64,000 nt of DNA from Colwellia sp. 75C3. Its GTDB lineage: Bacteria > Pseudomonadota > Gammaproteobacteria > Enterobacterales > Alteromonadaceae. The stretch is taken from contig NZ_PJAU01000056.1 of the NCBI RefSeq assembly GCF_002836255.1, positions 62,001-126,000 of the forward strand, in the 5' to 3' direction. A program made the translations under genes and the position numbers. The notes under the pieces were generated by a model that saw only the letters and a list, made by a program, of their open reading frames with translations, did no database searches and was not told the origin of the DNA. Positions 23,691-26,130 of this stretch are shown in pieces; the stretch's first letter is position 1; each line of letters begins with the position of its first letter.

Positions 23691-23791
23691 AAAATAATTA
23701 ATTCAGCGAATGCTCTGTATTTAAAAGACTAAAAATGACACCTTAAAAATAACACTCGTATGTTATCGTCTATGAACTACCGACTTGGTTG

Positions 23792-24289
23792 TCAATCTCC
23801 GCAGCCAAGTTCCAAACACTTTTCTGCCGCCTTAATATCCATTTCGTTCATTAAGACTTCCATTAAGATTATCAAGCGTCGTTCCGCATTGCCAAATTTA
23901 TCCATCCCACCATATTCAACGGAATCAAAATCTACACTAGCTAAAACACTGCCATTTTTATCAACTAACTCTAGGTTCGCATAGCGCATATATGACGCCA
24001 TATCCCACCACCAGTTAGCGTTGTATTTAAATAGCACCTGTCCATCTTTAAGCTTCTGCTTGACCCTCACGTTATAATCTGCAACATCATAGTCATTTTC
24101 AAGCATCCAATCAGATAATACATTTTTAACTGACGTCCGTTGCTTGTCGTCATCAATCATGACAATTTGAGTTTTAGCTTGTTTGAATTCATTTGTATTA
24201 AGTTGTTTAACGTTTGACATTCCATTGCCTGAACAGCCACTAAGGGCAATGGATGTAATGACAGCTAAAGCAGCGACTAATTTTTTCAT
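23792..24289 (-). CDS. Hypothetical lipoprotein
   Basis: A 165-residue protein beginning 'MKKLVAALAVITSIALSGCS', a textbook lipoprotein signal with lipobox LSGC, so it is acylated at about Cys19. The mature part ('VLFKYNANWWWDMASYMRYA', 'VDFDSVEYGGMDKFGNAE') matches a pattern of small outer-membrane-associated lipoproteins of unknown role. I chose the ATG at 24289 because it starts the signal; a longer frame upstream has no such fit. It is divergent from ybiT. Confidence 0.7.
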   Translation of the reverse strand: MKKLVAALAVITSIALSGCSGNGMSNVKQLNTNEFKQAKTQIVMIDDDKQRTSVKNVLSDWMLENDYDVADYNVRVKQKLKDGQVLFKYNANWWWDMASYMRYANLELVDKNGSVLASVDFDSVEYGGMDKFGNAERRLIILMEVLMNEMDIKAAEKCLELGCGD

Positions 24290-24537
24290 TTCTATTTGTA
24301 TTCCTGTTTGGGTCGGGGCAATTTTAATCGCGCATTTTGCACTAAGGAAATATAACAAAGTAGCTACAAACGGTTTTATTCTGTAATTTATCAGTTTTCT
24401 ATTAAATTTTATAATTTTCAGGACGTTGCATAAGGGGGGATTTCTAGCTAGATATTTAATTGCTATAGATGGTATTGATTAACCGCTTTAAGTATAATGC
24501 GCCTAATTAGATTCATATATCAACTATCGAGCCACTT

Positions 24538-26130
24538 ATCTTACAAGCAAATAACATAACCCAGCAATTCGGGGCGAAACCTCTTTTTGAAAACATCTCT
24601 CAAAAATTTGGTGGCGGTAATCGTTACGGTTTAATCGGTGCAAATGGTTGTGGTAAATCTACCTTCATGAAGATTCTAGGTGGTGATTTAGAGCAAACAT
24701 CTGGTAACGTTAATCTTGATACCGGTGAACGCTTAGGTAAATTAAGCCAAGACCAGTTCGCTTTTGAAGCTAACAGCGTTATTGATACTGTGATCATGGG
24801 CCATACCGAACTATGGGCAGTAAAAGAAGAGCGTGACCGTATCTATGCTTTGCCTGAAATGAGCGAAGCTGATGGTATGAAAGTCGGCGATTTAGAATCT
24901 GAATACGCTGAAATGGATGGTTACAGTGCTGAAAGTCGTGCAGGTGAATTGTTAATCGGTGTCGGTATTCCAATTGAGCAACATTACGGTTTAATGAGCG
25001 AAATAGCCCCTGGCTTTAAGTTACGTATATTACTTGCTCAGGCACTTTTCTCAAATCCTGATATTTTGTTACTCGATGAGCCAACCAACAACTTGGATAT
25101 TCACACTATCCAGTGGTTAGAAGAAACGTTAAATGAACGTAATTCAACCATGATCATAATCTCGCATGATAGACATTTCCTAAACAGTGTTTGTACGCAT
25201 ATGGCCGATTTAGATTACGGCGAACTATGTGTTTTTCCAGGTAACTACGACGAATACATGTTGGCAGCCACACAAGCAAGAGCCCGTTTATTGTCAGATA
25301 ATGCTAAGAAGAAAGCACAAATTGGTGAACTTCAAGCTTTCGTTGCTCGTTTCTCAGCTAACGCATCAAAAGCAAAACAAGCGACGTCTCGTGCTAAGCG
25401 AATTGATAAAATTCAATTAGATGAAGTAAAACCATCAAGTCGTAGTAATCCGTTTATTCGTTTTGAGCAAGAAAAGAAATTATTCCGTAATGCTTTAGTT
25501 ATTGAAAAATTGAATAAAAGTTTTGAAGATACCCATGTTCTTAAAAACATTTCAGCGTTAATTGAAGTCGGTGAACGTATCGCCATTATCGGTGAAAACG
25601 GTATTGGTAAAACCACGTTATTACGTACGTTAATGAACGAAGTAGCTTACCAACAAGATTCAGGCGAGTTCACTTGGTCTGAAAATGTCAATATCGGCTA
25701 TTACGCACAGGATCATGAATTCGAATTTGAAAATGACATGACCTTATTTGACTGGATGAGCCAATGGCGTCAACCAGAAGATGATGAACAAGCAGTTCGT
25801 GGTTATTTAGGTCGTTTACTTTTCTCTGCTGATGATATTAATAAGTCAGTTAAAGTATTATCTGGTGGTGAAAAAGGCCGTATGTTGTTTGGCAAACTAA
25901 TGATGCACAATCCAAACATATTGTTACTTGATGAACCAACCAACCACATGGATATGGAATCAATTGAATCATTAAATATGGCGTTAGAGCAATACGAAGG
26001 CACACTTTTATTCGTTAGTCACGACAGAGAGTTTGTTTCCACCATTGCTACCCGTATTATTGAAATAACCAAAGACGGCTATATTGATTTTGCTGGTACT
26101 TATGATGAATACTTAGCAAGCCAAGTTTAA
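24538..26130 (+). CDS. ybiT: ABC-F protein YbiT, apparent AUC start codon
   Basis: A 530-residue ABC-F ATPase, exactly the length of E. coli YbiT. ABC-F proteins bind the ribosome E site and act in translation. It has two ATPase cassettes: Walker A 'GANGCGKS' and 'GENGIGKTT', Walker B with '[11 protein letters not shown]' and '[11 protein letters not shown]', and 'LSGGEKGR'. The frame is open from a stop at 24508, and no ATG, GTG or TTG lies between it and Walker A. Alignment with YbiT puts the initiator exactly at ATC 24538, with GAG six bases before it. TATAAT at 24493 gives a very short leader. The first ATG, at 24667, would remove Walker A. Confidence 0.9.

Follow-up and report, generated by a model that had tools for sequence, protein, structure and literature searches.

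The ABC-F gene ybiT of Colwellia sp. 75C3 has a probable AUC start, and AUU, AUC and AUA recur at the same codon in related bacteria

The ybiT start region in the window

We analyzed a 64,000-nt stretch of the Colwellia sp. 75C3 genome, hereafter the window, which carries on its forward strand a gene for an ABC-F family ATPase, ybiT (24538..26130; 530 amino acids plus stop). The first-pass annotation had named the gene ybiT, and NCBIfam profile NF011646 (PRK15064) agrees, scoring the product at 1003.5 bits against a cut-off of 762 over residues 2–529, with residue 2 falling on profile position 2. The reading frame is uninterrupted from 24511 to the stop codon at 26128–26130, and the in-frame stop on its 5' side, read from the sequence, is the TAG at 24508..24510 (forward strand). 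This TAG is followed by ATT CAT ATA TCA ACT ATC GAG CCA CTT and then by ATC (24538–24540), TTA and CAA. Reading the window sequence, we found no ATG, GTG or TTG in the ybiT frame between the stop at 24508 and position 24667, as had been claimed for the interval up to Walker A; the first canonical codon is the ATG at 24667, immediately 3' of the first Walker A motif. Among the 38 window open reading frames of at least 200 codons, none runs further from its upstream stop without a canonical start than ybiT (52 codons); the next two reach 40 and 22. A start at ATG 24667 was rejected, as Walker A would be lost and the homology extends to 24538. In an alignment of orthologues the ATC at 24538..24540 falls on the column of their start codons, and the product read from it has 530 residues; this alignment, together with the profile match from residue 2, upholds the earlier placement of the start and the earlier product length. 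On these grounds ATC 24538 is very probably the start codon of ybiT in the window, a well-supported assignment.

A predicted −10 box of the ybiT promoter, TATAAT, lies at 24493..24498 on the forward strand, where the first-pass annotation had noticed it, and the same box, with a GCGC-rich stretch after it, recurs 5' of ybiT in many relatives at variable spacing to the gene. The 61 nt from 24449 to 24509 share 79% identity with the region 5' of ybiT in locus L030 of genome G017, and TATAATGCGCC also stands 5' of ybiT in that genome, whose homologous start codon is ATG. Overlapping the −10 box is an out-of-frame ATG, from which a 20-codon frame extends across the start (24497..24559, forward strand). 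Since TATAATGCGCC is common to L030, which starts ybiT elsewhere, we take ATG 24497 as promoter sequence and not as a lost start, and the frame that it opens is probably untranscribed because its ATG sits within the −10 box. A frameshift linking ATG 24497 to ybiT, which had been put forward as a way to overturn the AUC reading, was rejected, as this ATG belongs to the −10 box just as in L030. The sole Shine-Dalgarno candidate noticed is a very weak GAG at 24529..24531 (forward strand; leader duplex −2.2 kcal/mol). The leader folds into little structure (−5.3 kcal/mol over 96 nt), and no Rfam family reached its gathering threshold in 24300–24700. The divergent neighbor at 23795–24313 (reverse strand) encodes a lipoprotein of the Sbal_3080 family, scoring 97.7 bits against NF040519 (cut-off 80). 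In a search of 39 genomes of the genus, the sole matches to the DNA at 23700–24545 were the genome that it comes from and G017, the latter limited to 61 nt of promoter.

Start codons of ybiT across the family

We compared the homologous codon after aligning the N-termini on a conserved N-x-T motif five codons 3' of the start, and we write ATH for ATT, ATC or ATA. The family set held 130 loci, of which 30 were genus loci, 7 were additional regions from the genus and 93 came from the wider family. A match was present in 232 of the 246 family genomes searched, and the loci were drawn from among the matches listed. Selection followed similarity rank, except that some of the last 40 were chosen for having a match that starts at residue 1. 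The start codon was ATG in 62, GTG in 23, TTG in 23, ATT in 11, ATC in 7 and ATA in 4. The ATH starts, found in six GTDB genera (g1, g19, g22, g26, g33 and g40), thus make up 22/130 orthologues, which, given how the loci were chosen, is no unbiased frequency. In 19 of these 22 there is no in-frame ATG, GTG or TTG after the upstream stop. Within the genus, ATH was present in 6/37 full-length copies; the remaining two of the 39 genomes gave a partial match only (G007) or none (G026, 76% complete). A further 72 named loci (L046–L117) from enterobacteria, Shewanella, Vibrio, Psychromonas, Rheinheimera, Pseudoalteromonas and others, some of them within the same GTDB family, had GTG in 48, TTG in 21, ATG in 2 and ATC in 1, the last three all being Pseudoalteromonas. 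One E. coli ybiT record is annotated with a GTG start. Our search of openly licensed papers for non-AUG ybiT starts and for AUC/AUU starts found no non-AUG start named for ybiT.

Judged from these alignments, the AUC start in the window is no single-genome oddity, and the recurrence of AUU, AUC and AUA at the same codon in relatives speaks for the AUC start proposed at first pass. The comparison with relatives that had been suggested there turned out divided, with ATH in 6/37 genus copies but ATG in all five rows nearest to the window copy in the tree described below. Those five rows, and the fact that ATC is known here from one sequence of the strain, would fit a base or assembly error at 24538 that hides a true ATG. 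Such an error is very improbable, because relatives repeatedly carry AUU, AUC or AUA at this codon: ATH occurs in 5/36 other full-length genus copies, each from its own assembly and together far beyond any plausible error rate, and the context ATC TTA CAA GCA is similar to the one seen in further ATH lineages, for example L132.

The same data bear on whether translation begins elsewhere, at ATT 24511, ATA 24517 or ATC 24526 upstream or at ATG 24667 downstream. All of these codons lie in the frame that is open from 24511, but the codon aligned with 24538 is ATG, GTG, TTG or ATH in 130/130 family loci and in 72/72 of L046–L117. Moreover, the ATT of g22 and of some g19 loci has an in-frame stop four codons 5' of it, with a Shine-Dalgarno site between the two. 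The downstream ATG would drop the entire first Walker A motif. We regard a start at any of these codons as highly unlikely.

For Pseudoalteromonas (g19), 60 genomes were searched with an ATT-start ybiT as query, and 59 had a match. The 30 loci nearest to the query had ATT in 18 and ATC in 12, so that ATH stood in 30/30, a figure which is no unbiased frequency given the ATT start of the query. The same class is therefore found in several species, across six GTDB genera and in all 30 nearest g19 loci. The next 20 g19 loci had ATG in 12, ATT in 4, TTG in 3 and GTG in 1 (ATH in 4/20), and the 21st row after the first 30 (G271, L363) had ATG. Another 20 picked g19 loci, 17 of them second-type copies (65–70% identity), had TTG in 19 and ATC in 1. 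An in-frame canonical codon lies upstream in 18 of the nearest 30 g19 loci and is absent in 12, and for those 18 it is a weakness of the ATH reading. In 17 of the 18 it is a TTG at codon −5, within the stretch TTGGAGGG. From the leader sequences we think that this TTG is not the start, since we saw no Shine-Dalgarno site 5' of it and sister leaders have CTG there or a TAG at codon −4; those with the TAG carry TAGGAGCCCACT ahead of the ATT. An ATG at codon 9 (N-I-T-M), present in g19 and in the second ybiT copy described below (ybiT2), could serve as an alternative start eight residues in; we saw no Shine-Dalgarno-like stretch ahead of it in either group, and the window copy has Gln at that codon.

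A DNA tree was built from 90 ybiT copies with the first ten codons left out, by a quick method that flagged some long branches. It held 26 ATH rows and 64 with other starts. The ATH state changed to or from other starts 10 times on this tree, 8 of the changes being forced by starred branches, and it was clustered (10 changes versus a shuffled mean of 22.7). ATT, ATC and ATA swap within ATH clades, a pattern to be expected if what is kept is the class rather than the particular letter. As a yardstick, in a survey of 36 genome triplets a switch from AUG to AUU was recorded for 1/61,358 ancestral AUG starts, and one to AUU for 1/5,080 GUG starts (PMC5622118).

The genome of the window strain has a second copy, ybiT2, which is 64% identical to the first and scores 929.2 bits against NF011646 (cut-off 762). 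Its own start (L002, G000:C44, 1501) reads ATC ATC behind CGGAGTATAGGCTT, with no canonical start before codon 9. Among the best 30 of 35 genus genomes with a match, ybiT2 starts with TTG in 19, ATC in 11 and ATG in 0. The 11 ATC loci have the leader GGAGTATAGGCTT or GGAGTACAGGCTT; in 9 of them no canonical codon lies upstream, and the other 2 carry ATG at codon −10.

Other genes of the genus served as controls, each in its best 30 loci. Start codons were ATG in 30/30 for uup, ATG at the aligned codon in 27/30 and two codons on in 3/30 for ettA, and TTG in 30/30 for yheS (L501–L530). The alignments thus place ATH starts in none of uup, ettA and yheS, all three ABC-F genes like ybiT. The yheS gene is a further ABC-F gene in the genus that avoids AUG. 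In 10/30 loci the positive control pcnB (L398–L427) had no canonical codon between its conserved part and the stop preceding it. Those pcnB loci show the context ATC AAA CGC/AGC GTT, and several others have GTG two codons 5' of the ATC. For infC (L368–L397), the position that we take from E. coli infC to be that of its AUU carried ATT or ATC in 30/30 genus loci (ATC in 3), and an ATG stood two codons 5' of the ATT/ATC in 30/30 Colwellia loci. The Colwellia infC codon is followed by AAA GGT GGA, and ATG GCT lies just 5' of it, very close to GGAGG.

Shine-Dalgarno strength and the leader of the window copy

For 180 loci we calculated how strongly the segment from 20 to 4 nt 5' of the start pairs with the anti-Shine-Dalgarno sequence, expressed as duplex energy. 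The median was −6.8 kcal/mol for ATH (38 distinct leaders), −3.5 for ATG (64) and −4.2 for GTG/TTG (44). The share of tree rows reaching a given energy was 25/26 for ATH and 13/64 for other starts at −4.5 kcal/mol, 24/26 and 13/64 at −5.0, and 20/26 and 4/64 at −6.0, raw counts that are inflated by inheritance since the clustering of start states makes the rows non-independent. Across 8 independent pairs at a cut-off of −4.5, the stronger site accompanied ATH in 6.0 on average, against 0 (median p 0.03); at stricter cut-offs the median p was 0.06 (−5.0), 0.125 (−5.5) and 0.06 (−6.0). The leaders therefore indicate an association of strong sites with ATH that is consistent in direction and modest in formal terms, 0.05 being reached only at the mildest cut-off. 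In clades with strong Shine-Dalgarno sites the ATH start would be even more probable than in the window.

The window leader is an outlier. At −2.2 kcal/mol it is the weakest among the 38 ATH leaders, and 7/64 ATG leaders have a site that is no stronger. Aligned with L030, it lacks much of TGTTACGGA, has ATC in place of ATG, and shows the ACGGAA stretch of L030 broken up. Of L030 and the nearest sister, it is L030 that the window promoter resembles more, and blastn homology of the gene with its sisters begins only at about codon 3–4, so that the leader may have been replaced. By eye, the ATG-start Colwellia leaders L009, L010, L013, L014, L017–L020, L022, L026 and L028 contain a TTTACTG-like...CAGTAAA inverted repeat; it is placed between promoter and start, and is absent in the window, L012 and L016.

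The window copy alone may thus be decaying, having recently lost its Shine-Dalgarno site and AUG while ybiT2 was left working, a reading compatible with a weak start maintained in the relatives. The missing part of TGTTACGGA, the ATG of the nearest tree rows, the late onset of homology with sisters and the presence of a 64% identical second copy, which could make up for poor translation of the first, all point that way. Set against this, ybiT2 also starts with ATC, and the reading frame in the window has no internal stops or other frame damage. Comparison with L012 gave dN 0.011 and dS 0.426, and the ratio of nonsynonymous to synonymous counts was 0.128–0.138 on the window branch versus 0.107–0.120 for L010, L011 and L012, so that neither dN/dS nor the branch count ratios revealed relaxed selection on the window copy. 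Decay is accordingly an unlikely account. Normal constraint despite a weak leader implies either that YbiT from the window copy is made at a low level or that the signals were lost very recently.

A putative weak start under initiation control

With AUU, AUC and AUA, only two positions pair with the initiator anticodon. Translation of the window gene would initiate at AUC 24538 with initiator fMet-tRNA, which would make fMet the first residue, and the third-base mismatch with the initiator tRNA would render initiation inefficient and disfavored by IF3. In this family ybiT often has a weak-class start: many lineages use GUG or UUG, and AUU, AUC or AUA recur, the latter mostly behind a strong Shine-Dalgarno site. 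In the mechanism that we propose, it would follow from the third-base mismatch and the discrimination by IF3 that YbiT output is low and rises when IF3 is short relative to 30S. The window copy, with its weak Shine-Dalgarno as well, would be expected to give very low YbiT unless otherwise helped. One in vitro study attributes the exclusion of weak third-base pairs, AUU with the initiator anticodon CAU among them, to IF3, EF-G and RRF (PMC10158994).

The literature describes several genes with non-canonical starts of this kind. E. coli infC has an AUU start through which IF3 exerts feedback on its own gene (PMC9410913). Like ybiT it combines an AUU-class non-AUG start with a ribosome-factor product, but the infC product, unlike YbiT, is IF3 itself, which inspects the start codon, and Colwellia infC differs further in the ATG two codons upstream noted above. 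The inefficient AUU of E. coli pcnB is reported to limit its output (PMC9410913). A start codon of the inefficient class is likewise common to pcnB and ybiT, and 10 of the 30 genus pcnB loci lack a canonical start; pcnB is another gene with another product, and limitation by the codon is reported for the E. coli gene. The parallel with infC and pcnB drawn at first pass is apt. In Streptomyces, sigR has a conserved GTC start with an IF3-dependent limitation established by experiment (PMC5472188); the conserved non-canonical start is the likeness to ybiT, whereas the IF3 limitation is that of sigR, whose start is GTC and not ATH and which is another gene in another phylum. Staphylococcus cvfC1 (AUU) and ccpN (AUA) combine ATH with an extended Shine-Dalgarno motif, and their reporters gave about 10% of the AUG output, with ccpN reaching up to 30% in rich medium (PMC13009471). 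The ATH relatives of ybiT would fit the same design in pairing ATH with a strong Shine-Dalgarno site; cvfC1 and ccpN are unrelated to ybiT, whose codon class shifts repeatedly among related species.

We favor the view that ybiT is a gene with a purposely weak start, probably policed by IF3, like infC, pcnB, sigR, ccpN and cvfC1. A simpler possibility, which we consider rather unlikely, is that AUU, AUC or AUA merely fixes a low, constant YbiT level with no sensor, the weak codon being tolerated because little protein is needed. The GTG or TTG starts of ybiT in 69/72 of L046–L117 and the uniform TTG of yheS, neither of which moved to ATH, fit such a constant level. It would not predict a stronger Shine-Dalgarno site with ATH, as seen at −5.0 kcal/mol, nor that the 30 nearest g19 loci hold ATH when AUG is a single change away. 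YbiT may plausibly need its level to be limited: published reports state that ATPase-deficient YbiT inhibits protein synthesis in E. coli (PMC6723617) and that YbiT/YkpA aids translation of charged motifs in Bacillus (PMC11381351). IF3-dependent control would be the likeliest purpose of the weak ybiT start, and is likelier than control by YbiT itself, since we found nothing in the literature searched on YbiT inspecting start codons. More tentatively, and with somewhat less than even confidence, ybiT may be a further IF3-policed gene of the Gammaproteobacteria alongside infC and pcnB, with the fidelity of start-codon choice gating its synthesis, such that cells short of IF3 relative to 30S make more YbiT, both copies in the window genome are wired in this way, and lineages have repeatedly rewired codon (AUG, GUG/UUG, AUU/AUC/AUA) and Shine-Dalgarno strength.

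To our knowledge, conserved AUU, AUC or AUA starts have been reported for few bacterial genes. Gene finders limited to ATG, GTG and TTG would shorten genes with ATH starts. Within one bacterial family ybiT has entered or left the ATH class at least 8 times, with the Shine-Dalgarno site tending to follow; in the genus, uup, ettA and yheS kept to ATG or TTG. The gene thus offers a natural experiment on why cells retain a bad start codon, and its start may link a ribosome factor to initiation fidelity.
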